Positions 18,984-32,321 of a stretch of DNA of 64,000 nucleotides are shown here, piece after piece (the first letter of the stretch is position 1; each line of letters begins with the position of its first letter). A program made the position numbers and the translations under genes. This DNA is from Wenjunlia vitaminophila DSM 41686 (lineage in GTDB: Bacteria; Actinomycetota; Actinomycetes; Streptomycetales; Streptomycetaceae): contig NZ_KB904691.1 in the NCBI RefSeq assembly GCF_000380165.1, forward strand, positions 2,565 through 66,564, in the 5' to 3' direction. Below the pieces are notes generated by a model. It worked only from the letters and a program-made list of their open reading frames with translations. It searched no databases and had not been told where the DNA came from.

Positions 18984-19454
18984 ATGAGCTACGTGGCTGC
19001 GGATGGTGGGGGATTCATGGCTGCACAACGTCACCATGAGCTCATTGAACACGCCTTCGCCGCACACGAGCGCAGGAGCCGTTCGCTGTGGGTGGAGGAG
19101 CCGGTCGGCCGGCGGCGGATGCCCGACCCGGTGCGACGGTCGGCGGTGCGGGCGGTGATCATCATCGCCCTGACGATCATCCAGGTGAACATCGCGGTGC
19201 TGGGCGCCCTGGCCGCCGCCTGGATCGCCGCCCCGATGACCCTGTCGGCGGTGGTCAGCACGATCATCGCCACATGGGCGGTGCTCGACGTCTGGGTCAC
19301 CCGTCAGGTCCACGTCCAGCGACACGGGGTGATCTCGGAACCGAGCAGCGTGGCCCGCGCACCCCGGGGACAGCGCGCGCAGGCTCGGCCGGGTCGCCCC
19401 GCCGACCCGCAGTCCCCCGGCTCGCCCTCCCCGCCCCGGCTGCGCGGCGCCTAG
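18984..19454 (+). CDS. Small two-helix membrane protein, unknown
   Basis: 156-aa protein if started at ATG 18984; an ATG at 19017 (after GGGGGA) is an alternative giving 145 aa. It has a charged N-terminus (HHELIEHAFAAHERRSRSLW), two adjacent membrane segments (AVIIIALTIIQVNIAVLGALAAAWI and LSAVVSTIIATWAVLDVWV, each in part) and a Pro/Arg-rich tail. No family recognised. Its stop overlaps the end of the converging SMC-like gene by 4 bp, so the two genes are tail-to-tail. Whether it is linked to the SMC trio is unknown. Confidence 0.65.
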   Translation: MSYVAADGGGFMAAQRHHELIEHAFAAHERRSRSLWVEEPVGRRRMPDPVRRSAVRAVIIIALTIIQVNIAVLGALAAAWIAAPMTLSAVVSTIIATWAVLDVWVTRQVHVQRHGVISEPSSVARAPRGQRAQARPGRPADPQSPGSPSPPRLRGA

Positions 19455-22400
19455 GCACCGGTCGGCTCCTGGGACCTCCGGAAGACCCGGGTGGCGGTGA
19501 CCTCCCCGTGGACCGCGCCGCCGTCCGGGGTCGGCAGCCCGGGGCGCAGGTGCTCCTCCACGGAGATGTACTTCAGCCCGGCCCGCAGGTCGGCGTCGTT
19601 GCGCAGCCTGATGACCAGGGGGAATTCGGCCAACGCGGTGGTGTCGAACAGGCCCGTGGTGTACAGCAACTGGACACCGAGGGCGTCCGCGAAGGACCGT
19701 TGGAGTTCCAGCAGGTAGGCGGCGTTCGCCCGGCCGATGGGATTGTCCAGGAACAGGGTGCCGGCGTGCCGGTGCCGGTCCCGTCCCCGGTCGTTGCTGC
19801 GCAGCGCCGCCATGGTGCAGTACAGGGCGATGGCGGCGGTGAGCAACTGGCCACCGGAGAAGACGTCGCCCATCTGGCCCACCGGCACCCGCTCGGCCCG
19901 CAGCACCGCGTCCGGCTTGAGGATCTCCACGGTGACGCCCTCGGGCTGCAGCGCCGCGTGCACGCCCTGCTGGAGCAGGGTGAGACCGTCCCGCCGGCCC
20001 CACTCGGCCTGGCGGGAGGCGCCGTTCTTCCGCACGGACGCCCGGGTGGCCTCGTCGATCACCTCGCCGAGGCGCTCGGTGAGCGTGGCCGGGTCGGGCT
20101 CGGCGAAGCGGATCCGCAGGAACTCCTGCCCTGACCACTCCCCCAGGCCCTCCGGCAGACGGGACAGCCGCTGCGCCGAGTGCAACGTGTCCAGGGCCGC
20201 CTCGACCAGCCCGCGCAACCGGTCCACGATGCTGTCCCGGTTGCGCAGCAGTTGCTCCAGTTCGTCGCTGAGCACCCGCAGCCGGGGGGCGAACGCGGCG
20301 GCCCAGGCCGGGGCGTGCTCGGGCAGCGAGGCGGCGGGCAGCTCCCGGATCTGCTGGCGGGCGGGCGTGCGCACCATCTCGAACCGGGCCGCGTTGGCGT
20401 GCCGGACCAGGACGTCGCACGACTCCCGGACGGCGTCCTGGGCAGCGGCCAGGTCGGCGGCGCAGCCCCGCAGGGAGCGGCGCGACTCGGCGGCCGCGGT
20501 GCGGGCCCGCTCCAGGTCGTCGGGGTACGCCGTGGGTTCCTCCGCTCCCTCCTCGCCCTGTGTGGTCGCGGCCGGCAGCAGGTCCCGCAGCAGCGCGGCG
20601 ACGTCGTCGAAGCCGGAGGCCCGTTCCTGGGCGGTGCGGTGGGCGCGCACCAGGGCGGCGTGGTCGGCGTGTGCCGACTCCCACGCCTCGGTGTCGGCCG
20701 CCAACCGCCCGTTCGCGGTGCGCAGCAGGGCCTGGGCGTGCTCGGCGTCCCGGGGCCGCAGGTCCTCGGGCAGCTCGGTGTGCGCGTCACCGTCGGCCGG
20801 GGCGTGGCGCTCCGCCTCCCCGCGCAGCCGGCCGAGGTGTTCGCTGGCCGCGGCCGCCCGCCCCTCCAGGGTGTGCACCAGCGCCTCCACCCGGGCCGCC
20901 GCGGCCTGTCGGGACGGGGCCTCGGCGCCGTCCGGGCCCTGGAGCAACGCGGCGGCGCGGGTGCGCACCTTGTTGGTGAGCCGGTCCAGGTCGGCCCGGG
21001 CCGCGCTCTCCTCGCCCTCCGCCCTGGCCTGTTCCGCGCGCAGGTCGGCCCCGACCCCCACCTTCTCGTACACCTGGGACGCGGAACGGTACGCCTCGCG
21101 GAGCGCGGCCAGGGGGGCGCTCGGTGGTTCCGTGGTGGGTTCCTCCGGCGCCCCGGCGATCTCGGCGCGCTCGGCACGCAGGGTGCGCGCGGTGCGCCGG
21201 GAGTCGTCGGCGGCGCGCTGGGCGGCCCGGCGGTCCTCGTCCGCGGCGCGCGCGAGGGCCAGGCACTCCAGGGCCCGGGCGTCGGCCGCCGCCCCGTCCT
21301 CGGCCAGCTCCGCCAACCGCCTGGTCGCCGCGGGGCGCTCCCGCAGTCGGCGGGCGAGCCCGGCCAGGGCGTCGGCGGCGCGGGAAGCCTGCTGCGCCTC
21401 CTGCTGGCGCTGGTCGCGCAGCAGTACCGCACGCGCGGCCTGCCGTTCCGCGTCGTCCGCGGTGGCCCGGGCCTCGGCGAGCCGGGCGCGCGCCTCGTCG
21501 TTCCTCGCGCGGGCGGCGGTCACCGCGTCGGCGAGGGCGGCCAGGTGGCCCGGCGGGCAGGCGGCGCGCCACGAGGCGAGCCGCCCGGCCAACGCCCGGT
21601 CGGCGGCGAGTCGGGCGGTCAGCGCCCGGATCTGTTCGTCGTGGTCCGTCACCCGGGCGCGCAGGACCCGCCGCTCGTCGTCCGCAGCGTGCTCGTCGTG
21701 CATCGCGGGGTTCGGCGGCACCAGGAAGACCTGCGGGTCGGTGGCGCCACCGGGCGGCGGCGGGGCGAGCAGGGCCGCGGGCGTGCCCACCGCCACGGCC
21801 GACCGCGGCAGCAGCGCGGCCGAGGCGAGCAGCTCGCGGGCCCGCTGGTAGGCGGTGGGGTCGGTGACCACGACACCGTCCACCAGCTCGGGCCTGGCCC
21901 CGAGCACCGTGGCGTGGTCCGCCGGGTCCACGGTCTGGGCCAGGAAACGCCAGCCAGGCAGGGCCGGGATGCCGTGCTCACCGAGGAGTTCCACGGTGGC
22001 CAGCACGTCGGGCCCGGGCGGCAGCAACCCGCCGTCGCCCAGCGCGGCCAGGATTCGGTTGTCGTCCGCCGCCGCCGTGCGCAGGTCGAACAACCGGCGC
22101 TCGGCCCCGGCGACGACCCCGTCGAGGAGTTCCTGGAGCCCGTCGGCGTTGGCGTCGAGCAGCGCGGGGGTCAGACCACCGAGCCGGCCTCCGCCCGTGT
22201 CCCGGCCGGACGCCGGCGGTCCCGCGGCGGGCGCCGCGGTGGTGGCCGGTCCCGGGGAACCGTCGGGGTCCGGCGCCGGTGCGCCGAGGAGTTCGGCGAG
22301 CCGCTGGTCCTCGGCGAGGCCCTGGGCAGCCCGCGCCGCGGTGGTGTGTGCGGTCTCCGCCGCGGCCAGCGCGTCGGCCGCGCGCGCCGCGGCCAGGTCG

Positions 22401-24097
22401 GCGCGGGCCACCTCGGCGAGGGCCTCGGCCCTCGCGGCGAGCGCCGCGTCGGCTTCCTGACGGGTCCGGGCCCAGGCCTCCTCCGAGGCACGGCCGGTCT
22501 CCGCGGCGGCCAACGCGGCGCGCACCCGGTCCTCGTCGGAAGCGGACTCCTCCAGCCAGCCGGCGCGCACCGCCTCCGCGGTCTCCCGCTCCACCTCGGC
22601 GAGGCGCTGGCGCAGGTGGTCGGCCTCGCTGCGGGCCCGTTGGGACTCGGTGGCCGCGGTGGTGGCGTCCCGGTGCGCGGTCTCCGACTCGCCCTGCAGC
22701 GCCTCGGCCCGCGCCTCCTGCTCGTCCGCCGCGGCGTCGGCGGCGTCGGCCGCCGTGTCCAGGGCGCGCACCAGCTCCCCGGCCGCCTGCGCCCGGGCGG
22801 CGAGGGCCGGCGCCGCGTCCCGCTCCGCCTCCCGGATGGCCGCGGCGACCCGGGCGGAGCGGTCAGCGGCGGCCCGGTGCCGCAGCACCAGCTCGGCCGC
22901 CTGCCAGGCGGCCTGCGCGGTGCGGGCGTCGGCCAGTTCACGGCGCACCGCGGCGGCCCGCTTCTCCCCCGCGGCCAGCCCGAGGGTGGCGTGTCGGTGG
23001 GCGAGTTCAGCGGCGATCAGGGCGCTGCGTTCGCGCGCCGCCTCGGCCGTCGTCACCGCGTCGGCGGCGTGTGCCACCTGCTCGGCGAGGTCCGCGGCGT
23101 ACCGGCGTTCCTGTCGGGCGCGCGCGGCGAGCTGCTGGGAGAGCCGGCGGGTGCGGCGCTCGGCCTCGGCGTGGATGCCGCGTGCCCGTCCCCTGGCTTC
23201 GGTGGCCTCCACCACGAGGTTGAGCAACCGCACCGAGCCGGCGGTGAAGTCCCGCTCCGCGGTCAGTTCGGCACGCCGGCCCAGCTTGTTGGCGAAGCCG
23301 TGCACCAGGTCGGCGAGTCCGTCGGTGTCGCGGGTGTCGGTGACCGCGCGGAGCAGCAGGTCCACGAAGTCCATGTCGTGGCGGACCGCGAACAGGCCGG
23401 CGGCCTCGCCCTCGTCGGCGTTCATCTCCCGTTGGTAGCGGAAGAGTTCGGGGTCGAGTCCGAGGGTGCCGAGGTGCTCGTTCCAGCGCTCGTGGATCTC
23501 CTCCCAGACGACCTCCAGGTGCGGGTACGTCCTGCCGGCCTCGGTGAGGACGTCCCGGAACCCCTTCATGGTGCGGCGGCGGCCCCGTGCCCCGGCCACA
23601 CCGGGCTCGGCCACGGGCAGCGCGTCCAGGGACATGCCGGGGCCGGGCCGGAAGGAGTACCAGCTCTCGGCGAACCTGCGGGGGTCGGAGGAGACCTGCC
23701 GCCCGCGCCACTCGCTGACCTTGCCGACGACGACGAGTTCACCGGTGCGGGTGTGCTGCCACTCCAGGGCGACGTGCCCGCAGTCGTCGGCGAGCAGGAA
23801 CTTGCGCAGCACCCCGGAGCTGGCCCCGCCGAGGGTGTTCCGGTGGCCGGGCAGCATCACCGAGAAGATCAGTTTGAGCAGCACCGACTTGCCGCCGCCG
23901 TTCTCCAGGAAGATCACACCGGCCGGCGCGGGCCGACGGGGCGGGCCCTGCGGCTCGTCGTCCTCGAAGATGTCGGTCTGCCGCGGGGCCGGGTTCGGCA
24001 CGGGTCCACCGACCCCGCGGAGGTCCAGGACGGTGTCCGCGTAGCGGGCCCCGGCGGGACCGATGGAGTACAGACGGACCCGGGACAGCTCGTACAT
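19451..24097 (-). CDS. SMC/MukB/JetC-like coiled-coil ATPase
   Basis: 1548-aa protein of SMC architecture: N-terminal ATPase half with Walker A ENGGGKS (residues 65-71), very long Ala/Glu/Arg-rich coiled coils (about 270-590 and 830-1300), a central globular hinge-like part (about 640-800, around LLDGVVAGAERRLFDLR and VDGVVVTDPTAY), then a C-terminal head with signature FSGGQ (SGGQ 1414-1417) and Walker B LFLDNP. The residue after the Walker B Asp1451 is Asn1452 where SMC proteins have the catalytic Glu. It is the third gene of a minus-strand operon with kleisin-like and MukE-like partners, the order of MukFEB and Wadjet jetABC. Predicted DNA-loop-extruding ATPase for chromosome organisation or plasmid defence; the choice cannot be made here. 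Confidence 0.8.
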   Translation of the reverse strand: MYELSRVRLYSIGPAGARYADTVLDLRGVGGPVPNPAPRQTDIFEDDEPQGPPRRPAPAGVIFLENGGGKSVLLKLIFSVMLPGHRNTLGGASSGVLRKFLLADDCGHVALEWQHTRTGELVVVGKVSEWRGRQVSSDPRRFAESWYSFRPGPGMSLDALPVAEPGVAGARGRRRTMKGFRDVLTEAGRTYPHLEVVWEEIHERWNEHLGTLGLDPELFRYQREMNADEGEAAGLFAVRHDMDFVDLLLRAVTDTRDTDGLADLVHGFANKLGRRAELTAERDFTAGSVRLLNLVVEATEARGRARGIHAEAERRTRRLSQQLAARARQERRYAADLAEQVAHAADAVTTAEAARERSALIAAELAHRHATLGLAAGEKRAAAVRRELADARTAQAAWQAAELVLRHRAAADRSARVAAAIREAERDAAPALAARAQAAGELVRALDTAADAADAAADEQEARAEALQGESETAHRDATTAATESQRARSEADHLRQRLAEVERETAEAVRAGWLEESASDEDRVRAALAAAETGRASEEAWARTRQEADAALAARAEALAEVARADLAAARAADALAAAETAHTTAARAAQGLAEDQRLAELLGAPAPDPDGSPGPATTAAPAAGPPASGRDTGGGRLGGLTPALLDANADGLQELLDGVVAGAERRLFDLRTAAADDNRILAALGDGGLLPPGPDVLATVELLGEHGIPALPGWRFLAQTVDPADHATVLGARPELVDGVVVTDPTAYQRARELLASAALLPRSAVAVGTPAALLAPPPPGGATDPQVFLVPPNPAMHDEHAADDERRVLRARVTDHDEQIRALTARLAADRALAGRLASWRAACPPGHLAALADAVTAARARNDEARARLAEARATADDAERQAARAVLLRDQRQQEAQQASRAADALAGLARRLRERPAATRRLAELAEDGAAADARALECLALARAADEDRRAAQRAADDSRRTARTLRAERAEIAGAPEEPTTEPPSAPLAALREAYRSASQVYEKVGVGADLRAEQARAEGEESAARADLDRLTNKVRTRAAALLQGPDGAEAPSRQAAAARVEALVHTLEGRAAAASEHLGRLRGEAERHAPADGDAHTELPEDLRPRDAEHAQALLRTANGRLAADTEAWESAHADHAALVRAHRTAQERASGFDDVAALLRDLLPAATTQGEEGAEEPTAYPDDLERARTAAAESRRSLRGCAADLAAAQDAVRESCDVLVRHANAARFEMVRTPARQQIRELPAASLPEHAPAWAAAFAPRLRVLSDELEQLLRNRDSIVDRLRGLVEAALDTLHSAQRLSRLPEGLGEWSGQEFLRIRFAEPDPATLTERLGEVIDEATRASVRKNGASRQAEWGRRDGLTLLQQGVHAALQPEGVTVEILKPDAVLRAERVPVGQMGDVFSGGQLLTAAIALYCTMAALRSNDRGRDRHRHAGTLFLDNPIGRANAAYLLELQRSFADALGVQLLYTTGLFDTTALAEFPLVIRLRNDADLRAGLKYISVEEHLRPGLPTPDGGAVHGEVTATRVFRRSQEPTGA

Positions 24098-24198
24098 GGC
24101 GCTTTCTCGTGCTCGGGCCGGCCCTCCGCGGGGGCGGGCTGGCTGTGGACTGCGGACGGGGGCCGGTGCCGGCCCCGACGGGTGGAGGTCGAATCAGG

Positions 24199-25119
24199 TC
24201 AGGTCAGGGAGTGGTACGGCAGGACGGCGCCGTCCGCCAGGTCCTCGTCCTGGTCGCCCGGCAGCAGCACCGGGGTGCCGTCGCTGATCGGAACCACCCC
24301 CAGGTCGAGGAGCTCGGCCATGGCCGCGCTCGACGCCAGGTCGCGGACCTGGAGCTGGTACCGGGCGGTGGTGCGGTACGTGCCGCCCGCCTCGTCCCCG
24401 GTCCGGTGCAGGAACCCGGAGTCGGCCAGGAAGGCCACGGCCTTGCCCACGATTCCCGTGGTGGAGCCGGAGAGCCTGCGGGCGTCCTTCGTCGCCCCGG
24501 TGGCGCTGCGCCGGGTGTACACCCGCCAGGCGGCTTCGAGGCCGGGGCTCTCCGACGCGGGATCGGTGTTCTCCCCGGCCTGTTCCGCCCTTTCCTGGAG
24601 GCGGCGGCACGCCTGCCGGACGAACGCGTCCACCCCGTGCACGCTGATCCGCCCGACGTAGCCGTCGTCGGCCAGGTCCTGGGGGCGGGGGAACGCGAGC
24701 GCGGCCACGGCCAGGTGGGCGAGCCCGTGCAGGAAGCGGTCCGTGGAGTCGGCGGCGGCACGGCGGGAGTAGTCCCCCAGGCGCACTCCGAACACCGAGT
24801 CCTCGGCGGCGGCCACCGCCATCCCCGCCCTAGTGGACACCTCGAGCACCACCAGTCCCAGGCCGGCGGCGACCGCGTCGACGAGCCGGGCGAAGGAGGG
24901 GTCCTCGCCGTGCCTGCGGATCAGCTCGGCGTACTGCGGGTCGCGGGCCGGCAGGAGCCGGGTGCGCAGGCCGAACGCCACCAGCCGGGCGGCGTCCGTC
25001 ACGTCGGCGGGGGTGACCGGGGCCGGACCGCGGTCCTCGCGCCGCCGGTCGCCGCCGGGAACGTCGTCGTACCCCCCGCCCGGCGCGGGGGCGTAGGGCT
25101 CCGCTGGGGTGTCGGTCAC
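24199..25119 (-). CDS. MukE/JetB-like winged-helix partner of the SMC ATPase
   Basis: 306-aa protein with a disordered acidic N-terminus (about 35 residues), then alpha-helical sequence and, near residues 215-270, a winged-helix-like stretch (GIVGKAVAFLADSGFLHRTG, then GTYRTTARYQLQVRDL). Size, position between the kleisin-like and SMC-like genes and the C-terminal winged helix match MukE/MksE/JetB proteins, but the primary sequence is not one I recognise, so the call rests mainly on context. The gap to the SMC gene is 101 bp and to the upstream gene 100 bp. Confidence 0.6.
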   Translation of the reverse strand: MTDTPAEPYAPAPGGGYDDVPGGDRRREDRGPAPVTPADVTDAARLVAFGLRTRLLPARDPQYAELIRRHGEDPSFARLVDAVAAGLGLVVLEVSTRAGMAVAAAEDSVFGVRLGDYSRRAAADSTDRFLHGLAHLAVAALAFPRPQDLADDGYVGRISVHGVDAFVRQACRRLQERAEQAGENTDPASESPGLEAAWRVYTRRSATGATKDARRLSGSTTGIVGKAVAFLADSGFLHRTGDEAGGTYRTTARYQLQVRDLASSAAMAELLDLGVVPISDGTPVLLPGDQDEDLADGAVLPYHSLT

Positions 25120-25219
25120 GGTCGGGGTCCCTTCCTGCCGCCCGTCCGGGCGCGTGTCCAGCCGCTGACGCCGGGGCGTGCACGGCGCCCCGGGGTCCGT
25201 CCTTCCGGCCCGGGCGCGG

Positions 25220-26725
25220 TCATGACGCGCGCTCCGCGGCCATCCCGGTGACGTCGAGCAGCGCGGTTCCGACGATCAGGTCCGCCCCGCCGAACTCGGG
25301 GTCGTCCAGGGGCGTCCCGTCGTCCCTGGCGAACAACAGCCGCCGCTCGCCCTGCCGGTACGCGACCCCCACCGGAGGACTCGCCGCGTGCACGGCGAGC
25401 AGCGTCACCAGGTAGGGCAGCTCGGGGTCGAGGGTGCGGGCCTCGGTGAGCAGGCCGGAGAGCCGGCGCGGGGCGTCGGCCGGCAGGTCGAGCAGCCGCA
25501 GCGCGGTGTCCATCTGACGGGACGTGAACCGGCTGTCGTCCGGGGTGGCCACCAGCTCGGGCTCGGGCAGCTCGGCGCCCAGGTGGTCGCGCTCGAGCGG
25601 CGGGGAGAGCAGCAGCTCCACCAGGTCCGCGACGCGCACCGCGGCGGGGTTGCGCAACCCGGCGCCCCGGGCGAAGAAGGCGTCGGTGACCCGGGTCGCG
25701 TCGGCCACGGGCATCGGCAGCAACGGGGCCAGGAGCTGCCCGTACAGGTCGGTGCCGGCCCGGCCGGGCGGCGCGGCGAACGCCTGGCGGTCCTGCTCGG
25801 CCCGGAACAGGGGTCCGGCCTCCAGCAGCCGGGACTGGAGCTGGGTGTGCCGACGGATGCAGTCCTTGACGATGTCCACCAGCTCCGCGGCCCGCCGCTT
25901 GTGCTCGGCCTTCCTGGGGTCGTCGGCGTCCGCCTCGTCCCTGACCCGGCGGATGTTGGTCAGGATGGCGTTCTCGTGGCGGTACCGGTCGGCGACGTGC
26001 TCAAGCGCCTCGGCGATCAGGTCCGGCACGCGGTTCAGCCAGTCCACGGCGCGCACGTCTCGTCGCGTGGCCTCCAGGGCGCGGCGGAGCGACTCGGCGT
26101 ACTGCACCGTGCGGTACCGCGCCTGTTCCGCGGCGAGCTGCGCGTCGGCGAGCCGTCCGCGCCCGATGAGCACCTCGAGCTTGACCTCGGCGGCGATCTG
26201 GGCGCTGGTGACGTCCGTGTCCAGCGCACCCACCAGCACGTTGACCGCCTCGTCGGTGGTGCGCAGGTAGACGCCGCCGTCGGGCCCGGGGACCTCCTCG
26301 ATCAGCTTGAAGTCGTAGTCCCGGCGGACGTAGGCGCCGTCCGGTCCGAACGTCCCGTACACCGCGCGGAACCCGCGGTCCACGCTGCCGACGTTGATCA
26401 GATTCTCCAGCACCCAACGGGCGACCCGCTCGTGCTCCTCCGCGGGGCGCTCCGGCGCCTGGGCAGCGACCCGGGGCAGCAGCCGGCCGATCACCTGCTC
26501 GTGCTCCGCCCCCGTGTCGAAGTCCATGCTCAACGTCACCAGGTCGATCGCCGCCAACGCCACCTCCGCCATGGAGTACACCGCGTACTCCCCGGCCAGG
26601 TTCGCCTTGCGGGCGTCCAGGTCGTGCAACGGCGCGGTGCAGGCGAGCGCGCGCAGGCGGCGGGCGAGCCCCTCGTCCGCGGCGGGCCCGGGCGCTGGCC
26701 GGGAAACGGTGGCGGTCACCCGCAC
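25220..26725 (-). CDS. MukF/JetA-like kleisin subunit
   Basis: 501-aa, mainly helical protein. The N-terminal region (about 30-180) resembles the winged-helix part of MukF/JetA (DARKANLAGEYAVYSMAEVAL; a beta hairpin with YDFKLIEE and GVYLRTTDEAVNVLV). The middle (about 180-320) is a helical bundle of Arg/Glu/Ala-rich heptads, and the C-terminal 150 residues form another globular part that would contact the SMC head. First gene of the trio. Two GTG starts are possible (26725 and 26719); neither has a ribosome site, and TAGTCT just upstream could be the -10 of a leaderless mRNA. No JetD-like nuclease gene is adjacent on either side. Confidence 0.6.
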   Translation of the reverse strand: MRVTATVSRPAPGPAADEGLARRLRALACTAPLHDLDARKANLAGEYAVYSMAEVALAAIDLVTLSMDFDTGAEHEQVIGRLLPRVAAQAPERPAEEHERVARWVLENLINVGSVDRGFRAVYGTFGPDGAYVRRDYDFKLIEEVPGPDGGVYLRTTDEAVNVLVGALDTDVTSAQIAAEVKLEVLIGRGRLADAQLAAEQARYRTVQYAESLRRALEATRRDVRAVDWLNRVPDLIAEALEHVADRYRHENAILTNIRRVRDEADADDPRKAEHKRRAAELVDIVKDCIRRHTQLQSRLLEAGPLFRAEQDRQAFAAPPGRAGTDLYGQLLAPLLPMPVADATRVTDAFFARGAGLRNPAAVRVADLVELLLSPPLERDHLGAELPEPELVATPDDSRFTSRQMDTALRLLDLPADAPRRLSGLLTEARTLDPELPYLVTLLAVHAASPPVGVAYRQGERRLLFARDDGTPLDDPEFGGADLIVGTALLDVTGMAAERAS

Positions 26726-26822
26726 AGACTAGGGGCTGCCACGGACGCCTCCGTCCCGGTGGGGCGGTTCCCGGCCTGCCGGTACACGCGCCGCGGACCC
26801 TCCCGGAGGGGGTGACGCGCCG

Positions 26823-30566
<3,744 letters not shown>

Positions 30567-30622
30567 GCGGGCATTGTCCCAAAGCCGACCCGGCCCCGGC
30601 CCCGAAGAGTGCACACGCGGGG

Positions 30623-32020
30623 TCAGTTCGCCCTGAGCCGGCCCCGGACGGCGGTCTGCACCTCTGCCTCCTCCGCCGGGTCGGCGGCGAGCCTGCGCAG
30701 TCGGGCCAGCACCCGGACGTCACCGATGGCGGCGTGTCTCGCGGCCAGTTCCCGGGTGTTCTCCTCACAGTCCCAGAGGCACTCCACCGCGAACCCCTCG
30801 GGGAACGACGGGTCACACGCAGAGAGCGCGTGGGCGACGGTGCCCCGCAGGTGGGAGGAGGAGGTCTCGCGGTAGACGTGGCGCAGCAGCGGGGCGGCGC
30901 AGGGCACGGGGAACCTGGCGACGCCCTCCACCAGGGCGGCCAGGCCCGGGCCGTCGGGGCCCTCGCACCGGACCTGGCGGCGCAGGGCGGCCAGCACCGC
31001 CGGGGCGTCGCGCTCGCTCCCGGCGCAGGCGAGCATCCGGGCGGCTGCCAGGCCGAGGGAGTCGTCGCGGACGCACCACGCCCTGGCCCGTTGCAGGGCC
31101 TCGTCGGTGCGCATCCGCTGGAAGACCTCGAGGGCGACGTGGGACACCCGGGGCAGCGGGTCGGCGGCGGCGCACTCGACGAGGGCGAGCGCCGCGGGGT
31201 CGTGGCGGTCGACGAGGTGGCGCAGGGCCGCGGCGCGGGCGGCCTCCGGGCCCCGGCGGGCGGCGAGCAGGAGTTCCGGGCGGTCCTGCGGGGTGGCGAC
31301 CACGGCCAGGCAGCGCGCGGCGGGCGCGTCGCGGTGTTCGGCCGGGTGGGCGTCGAGGCCGGCCTGGGCCCAGGCGAGCACCTCCGTCACGCTCCAGCCC
31401 GGGGTGGGGCCGCTGGGCCGTAGCTGGCGTTGCCAGCGGCTGAAACTGGCCTGTTCCTGGGCGGCGCGGACCCGGGGGTGGTCCAGGGCCCACAGCCGCC
31501 AGGGCCTCGGCTCGTACGCCTCGGTGACCGCACGGCACAGCGCGGCGTCGCCGTCGCGGTCGCCGGGGAACCTGGCCAGTACGGCGGGACCGAGTGCCCG
31601 CAACCCCTCGTCGTCGTCCCGCAGGGCGAGCTCGTCCAGGGCCCAGGCCCAGTTGGCGCCCACGGCGGCGTACCCGCGCAGCAGGTCCCGGGCGTCCCGC
31701 CGGCCGTAGCCTGTGAGGTGGCCGAGGACGGACAGCGCGAGGCCGGTGCGCTGCTCGTCGTCGTCCAGGGAGTCGTCGGGGTGGAAGAGGTGGTGCTCGA
31801 TCCCGTCCAGTTCGCCCTCGAGCTCGCTGTACAACCGGGCGTAGTACAGGGAGCGCGACTCCACGCGCCAGTCCCGGCGGGGGTCGCGCAGGACGCAACT
31901 CTCCAACGCGGCGAGCGCGTCGGCCCGCCGCGCCGCGAGGGCGTGCAGGGTCCCGTCCCCTCGGCCTCTTTGCAGAAGACCGAGAAGGGACCCGCTGGGC
32001 GCTATGTCTGGGTCGAACAT
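30623..32020 (-). CDS. HEAT-repeat protein, conserved in actinomycetes
   Basis: 465-aa protein built of repeated helix pairs (for example AALRHLVDRHDPAALALVECAAADPLPRV, seen in part, and AALVEGVARFPVPCAAPLLRHVYR). The N-terminus MFDPDIAPSGSLLGLLQRGR is one I recall from Streptomyces orthologues of unknown function, and this sets the start at ATG 32020 although no ribosome site is seen; the frame extends to 32056. Helical-repeat proteins of this kind usually bind other proteins. It stops 57 bp before the oxoprolinase gene start, so they may be co-transcribed. Function unknown. Confidence 0.8.
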   Translation of the reverse strand: MFDPDIAPSGSLLGLLQRGRGDGTLHALAARRADALAALESCVLRDPRRDWRVESRSLYYARLYSELEGELDGIEHHLFHPDDSLDDDEQRTGLALSVLGHLTGYGRRDARDLLRGYAAVGANWAWALDELALRDDDEGLRALGPAVLARFPGDRDGDAALCRAVTEAYEPRPWRLWALDHPRVRAAQEQASFSRWQRQLRPSGPTPGWSVTEVLAWAQAGLDAHPAEHRDAPAARCLAVVATPQDRPELLLAARRGPEAARAAALRHLVDRHDPAALALVECAAADPLPRVSHVALEVFQRMRTDEALQRARAWCVRDDSLGLAAARMLACAGSERDAPAVLAALRRQVRCEGPDGPGLAALVEGVARFPVPCAAPLLRHVYRETSSSHLRGTVAHALSACDPSFPEGFAVECLWDCEENTRELAARHAAIGDVRVLARLRRLAADPAEEAEVQTAVRGRLRAN

Positions 32021-32321
32021 GAGGTCAGCATCCGGTGTCAGGTTGCGCGGTGGCAACGGGATTTTCCCTGCCCTTGACCGGCATCCTTAACCCTGGCAGG
32101 GGAAACATCGCTTGATCCACGCCAGACGGGACCCCGTTGCGGGCCGTCCGGACACAGTCAGGTGCCGTCGAGAGACGCAGCGTACCGGGTGGACCCCCAC
32201 CTTTCAGCCTTACGCCCGAAACACACGATAAGTCCATGAACGTCCCGCAAGGGCCACCCCCACGGTGGACGGTGGAGCCTCACGGACCGTCCACCGGATC
32301 CGCGGCAGGCCCGGGTGACGA
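32021..32321. promoter_or_regulatory. 300-bp upstream region of HEAT-repeat gene
   Basis: No gene seen. The stretch near 32050-32120 is less GC-rich and probably carries the promoter of the HEAT-repeat gene on the minus strand. No clear operator was found. Confidence 0.3.

Follow-up and report, generated by a model that had tools for sequence, protein, structure and literature searches.

A Wadjet type III-derived SMC trio lacking a detectable JetD nuclease is a core complex of the Streptomycetaceae

We analysed a stretch of 64,000 nucleotides from Wenjunlia vitaminophila DSM 41686, referred to below as the window, in which three consecutive minus-strand genes encode a predicted SMC complex. 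Two further minus-strand genes lie upstream, and the features are as follows.

19451-24097, minus strand: jetC-like gene, SMC ATPase, 1548 aa (PADLOC JetC3 match)
24199-25119, minus strand: jetB-like gene, KITE/MukE-like winged-helix subunit, 306 aa (homology to jetB of JetD-bearing Wadjet III operons)
25220-26725, minus strand: jetA-like gene, kleisin subunit, 501 aa (PADLOC JetA3 match)
26823-30614, minus strand: hydantoinase/oxoprolinase gene, between the HEAT gene and jetA (Pfam Hydantoinase_A/B)
30623-32056, minus strand: HEAT-repeat protein gene, 477 aa (HEAT_2 and predicted structure; start uncertain, 427 aa if the start is at 31906)

A preliminary description of this DNA had read the three genes as an SMC, kleisin and MukE-like (KITE) trio of MukFEB/Wadjet-like type. 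Open reading frames of exactly the lengths it gave are present on the minus strand, spaced by about 100 bp each, and all three pass a GC-frame gene test. Very long antisense frames are also seen opposite jetC (for example 20180-24661 on the plus strand, 1493 aa); these are by-products of the 77-79% GC content and not genes.

JetA matches the PADLOC profile JetA3 (PDLC00567) at 608 bits (E 3.6e-183) and JetC matches JetC3 at 1376 bits. JetB has no match among the PADLOC and curated profiles, and aligns with jetB of complete Wadjet III operons at 27-53% identity, with 35-39% for most of the distant Wadjet III jetB aligned and 27% for the most divergent. Searches of Pfam and NCBIfam gave no match for JetA, JetB or JetC, sequence searches of the PDB found no relative of any of the three, and no sequence similarity to MukF, MukE or MukB was detectable in the Pfam and PDB sequence searches. 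The best PDB match of the low-confidence AlphaFold model of JetB (pLDDT only 46.5) is 3euh_C, the MukE of the MukE-MukF crystal structure (probability 0.89, E 0.085), and other MukE and JetB structures occur further down the match list. JetC carries a Walker A motif ENGGGKS, a signature FSGGQ and a Walker B LFLDNPIG. The DN of this Walker B, where DE is usual, led us to suspect a special ATPase, an idea rejected because DN is common to JetD-bearing systems. Judged by homology, the trio is the kleisin, KITE and SMC ATPase of a Wadjet type III complex. The SMC/kleisin/KITE composition first described is upheld by these matches, while the broader MukFEB/Wadjet-like label stands only in its second half: the PADLOC matches make the trio Wadjet type III-derived and not a generic MukFEB. 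With MukBEF of the enterobacteria, where it replaced Smc-ScpAB (PMC10586767), the trio appears to have in common the kleisin-KITE-SMC architecture, and with Wadjet type III it shares homologous JetA, JetB and JetC in the same order and the Walker B LDNPIG common to complete systems.

In Wadjet, JetABC extrudes DNA loops and JetD cuts small circles (PMC10586767). No JetD gene adjoins the trio in the window. Across the entire genome (6.43 Mb, 99% complete), no match was obtained with the profiles JetD_C (PF09983) and JetD3 (PDLC00594), both of which find matches in other genomes; a search of the same 6.43 Mb with DUF2399 (PF09664) was also empty, and since this profile matched nowhere else it has no positive control. 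Inspection of the flanks together with these searches confirms the earlier statement that no JetD lies on either side of the trio. Two of the options then offered can now be separated. A trio that uses a distant nuclease is not upheld where that nuclease would be JetD, of which PF09983, PF09664 and PDLC00594 detect no homologue in the genome, so that, within the reach of homology searches, a distant JetD is excluded; the nuclease-free variant is borne out, in the sense of no detectable JetD. A conserved JetD beside the trio was also looked for across the loci of close relatives, and none was found.

Among the relatives searched, JetD3 is matched strongly (E below 1e-50) in six genomes only: G010, G040, G041, G051, G060 and G075. 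Five of the six belong to the family, and there JetD comes directly after jetC in a jetABC operon that is separate and more divergent; G010 has the JetD-bearing operon only, without the core trio. JetD3 in family genomes always accompanies a Wadjet III operon that is additional to, or different from, the core trio. PF09983 has its stronger matches in JetD genes that are not of type III, in G030 and G036. Within the family, the JetD-bearing locus nearest to the core trio is L031 (G041:C80), whose JetA is about 60% identical; it offers a natural JetD donor for testing whether the complex can be re-armed. A survey of 72,556 plasmids returned no record with a copy of at least 60% identity and no copy of the core lineage. 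The best match (55% identity) lies on a Rhodococcus plasmid, where all four genes are present and JetD is annotated; in a Streptomyces plasmid relative at 31% identity, an HMM identifies the fourth gene as JetD-like. In this sample the systems carried on plasmids are armed and the trio fixed in the chromosome is not, the JetD status of the former being that of the two plasmid relatives inspected.

The trio itself is widespread. Of 299 Streptomycetaceae genomes, 295 have JetA (E below 1e-30), most of them in a single copy; identity to the JetA of the window is 76-88%, and the pattern is unusual for a defence system. Among 57 long named loci of the Streptomyces family, jetA and jetB are intact in all and jetC in 56, and the ATPase motifs are intact in all 62 full-length JetC proteins. 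Median pairwise dN/dS (Nei-Gojobori, pairs with dS of 0.05-0.8) is 0.12 for jetA, 0.16 for jetB, 0.21 for jetC and 0.27 for the HEAT gene; as judged from these ratios, all four genes evolve under purifying selection. Split frames were seen for jetC in G012 (L043/L076), where the end of jetA is affected too, and in G044 (L045), through either sequencing errors or real decay; one named locus also has a broken frame. These frames and the missing JetD could be taken as signs of a Wadjet III operon that has degenerated into a remnant and is heading for loss, but the low dN/dS, the conserved ATPase motifs, the intact frames in 56 of the 57 named loci and the near-universal presence contradict such a reading, which we regard as highly improbable. 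By its distribution and conservation, the trio is core to the Streptomycetaceae and vertically inherited; it is neither a defence island that is damaged or occurs sporadically nor an odd local operon. In this it differs from Wadjet type III proper, which has JetD and is sporadic, as well as in the HEAT gene linked upstream.

Concatenated JetA, JetB and JetC trees, which were quick and contain some long branches and uneven composition, place the Streptomycetaceae trio in one clade (SH-aLRT 100) that joins a clade of a second actinomycete family (f20). The f20 trio is likewise JetD-less and syntenic, and relatives of the trio occur in 19 of the 35 f20 genomes sampled. The JetD-bearing loci L189 and L200 group with the relatives of f20, and the JetD-bearing L031, L032 and L033 and the Rhodococcus plasmid lie outside. 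This topology needs at least three changes of JetD status. With JetD-bearing outgroups at the base, the ancestor of the trio most likely had JetD, which implies that JetD was lost; this would have been followed either by independent losses in the second actinomycete family or by later regains. The JetD-less trios of f20 (L180-L199) and of f48 (L179) have no HEAT gene, and a TerD-domain gene is found nearby. A divergent JetD considered after jetC in L179 was rejected, the genes there encoding GAPDH and PGK.

The flanks agree, by Pfam and gene calls, with what had been described, an oxoprolinase upstream and a small membrane protein and conservon downstream. On the downstream side are a short ORF, on the plus strand after jetC, and genes for a NIT-domain kinase and the conservon. 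As a replacement effector the short ORF was rejected, since none was found next to the trio in the early-branching genera and Pfam gives no match for it. The HEAT, oxoprolinase, jetA, jetB and jetC genes all run in one direction in the window, and the gaps between them do not exceed about 100 bp, so HEAT-oxoprolinase-jetABC may be read as a single transcript; a promoter and terminator scan of the window gave no evidence either way. Despite the shared strand and short gaps, we consider the hydantoinase/oxoprolinase gene a passenger and reject it as an operon partner, because only some relatives have it and others have unrelated genes or nothing in its place. The interval between jetA and the HEAT gene (26725-30623 in the window, and L072-L087) is a recurrent insertion spot, occupied by the hydantoinase or by unrelated gene sets depending on the Streptomyces species. 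A PAS-SpoIIE phosphatase gene (L072:9850-11331 and homologues) is a frequent upstream neighbour of the HEAT gene, and is not found there in the early-branching genera.

The HEAT assignment comes from weak HEAT_2 matches in 23 of 26 relatives (best E 2.5e-6) and from an AF2 model that is an all-alpha solenoid (pLDDT 80), with Foldseek matches to PP2A-A, importins and CAND1. The preliminary description did not mention this gene, which 295 of the 299 family genomes carry. It lies upstream of jetA on the same strand, 0.1-20 kb away, in all 44 genomes of a first set, and 74 of 84 further genomes keep this arrangement, with three inversions and seven cases on other contigs. In the early-branching genera g2 and g5 it precedes the jetA match by about 180-270 bp, although every other neighbour is unlike those in Streptomyces, and in G015 it adjoins jetA within the Streptomyces context. 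Gene order shows an ancestral linkage of the HEAT gene with the trio, and we propose that it was the first gene of the ancestral operon.

Whether linkage also reflects shared function is close to evenly balanced, with a near-even chance that the HEAT gene is merely a syntenic neighbour of unrelated function. In most Streptomyces 2.5-20 kb separate it from jetA, in 10 of the 84 further genomes it is inverted or on another contig, the JetD-less f20 trio has no HEAT neighbour, and HEAT proteins are common scaffolds. Against mere synteny stand its abutment to jetA in two genera that share no other neighbour with Streptomyces, and also in G015, and its constant strand and upstream position in the first set. 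Three of the four genomes that lack the HEAT gene also lack JetA and the trio, a coincidence weakened by the physical linkage and by assembly gaps, one of these genomes being 71% complete. The HEAT gene was not found beside the JetD-bearing operons or f20 trios examined. A bolder reading, which we think unlikely, is that the Streptomycetaceae complex swapped its nuclease for a HEAT subunit and became a HAWK-like partnered condensin on a large chromosome; if true, this would be a convergence with eukaryotic condensin and cohesin.

As to function, we think it rather probable that the JetD-less trio is a vertically inherited core complex that serves as a second condensin-like chromosome organiser beside Smc-ScpAB. 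From the established Wadjet mechanism (PMC10586767), JetABC without JetD should load and extrude but not cut. With JetD permanently lost, and the complex become core to the family, JetC dimers closed by JetA and JetB would load on DNA and extrude loops through ATP hydrolysis like Wadjet; extrusion, once completed or stalled, would end without a cut, and the trio would thereby organise the large chromosome as a second condensin. The protein encoded upstream, with its HEAT repeats, is a plausible regulatory or loading partner. Loop extrusion, the chromosome role and contact with the HEAT protein are inferred. Near-universality, purifying selection and immobility argue for housekeeping work on the chromosome, the kind of role proposed for MksBEF of Pseudomonas aeruginosa, which follows the same logic as a nuclease-less SMC trio acting on the chromosome and is thought to derive from JetABCD through nuclease loss (PMC10586767). 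MksBEF is a separate lineage in the literature classification, whereas the trio described here is type III-derived, near-universal in one family and HEAT-linked, and its host is a mycelial actinomycete that also has SMC.

The trio might instead still serve defence or plasmid control, with loop extrusion sensing small circular DNA that is then silenced or sequestered, or handed to an unrelated chromosomal nuclease; we hold this to be possible, if doubtful. The trio descends directly from Wadjet III, and the related actinobacterial MksBEFG/EptABCD systems of Corynebacterium and Mycobacterium act on plasmids (PMC10123090). These are Wadjet-type SMC complexes like the trio but have the nuclease MksG, and in C. 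glutamicum MksB, with its nuclease partner, affects plasmids and not chromosome organisation (PMC10123090). Here, however, JetD homologues are absent from the genome, published Wadjet restriction requires all four subunits (PMC10586767), and the near-universal, single-copy trio under purifying selection stands against the sporadic, plasmid-borne pattern of complete four-gene systems. The case of C. glutamicum MksB is a counter-example to the condensin-like reading. Against that reading it also counts that a nuclease unrelated to JetD and encoded elsewhere could be missed by homology search, and that a second condensin could be redundant: condensin work in Streptomyces concerns SMC, which already aligns the chromosome arms and carries out compaction (PMC13121528). 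No mention of the trio complex was found in the text of that study.

Actinobacteria are rich in Wadjet by DefenseFinder, and in Streptomyces Wadjet is enriched toward the chromosome arms (PMC10482375). Our results suggest that JetA and JetC profile matches in actinomycetes need not signal anti-plasmid defence: the PADLOC JetA3 profile matches the trio, and defence-gene counts could mistake it for immunity. In the literature searched, mostly without subscription journals, we found no description of a nuclease-free core Wadjet III trio or of a HEAT partner, so that novelty is unproven.

Accounts of chromosome biology in Streptomyces usually feature a single condensin, SMC. The data point to a second SMC complex in the Streptomyces family, near-universal and selectively maintained, and probably a neglected housekeeping complex given that it also lacks a DNA-cutting subunit and is usually linked to the HEAT gene. 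As a naturally occurring example of a Wadjet disarmed by JetD loss and fixed by vertical descent, it would make the switch of a loop extruder between genome organisation and DNA immunity testable.
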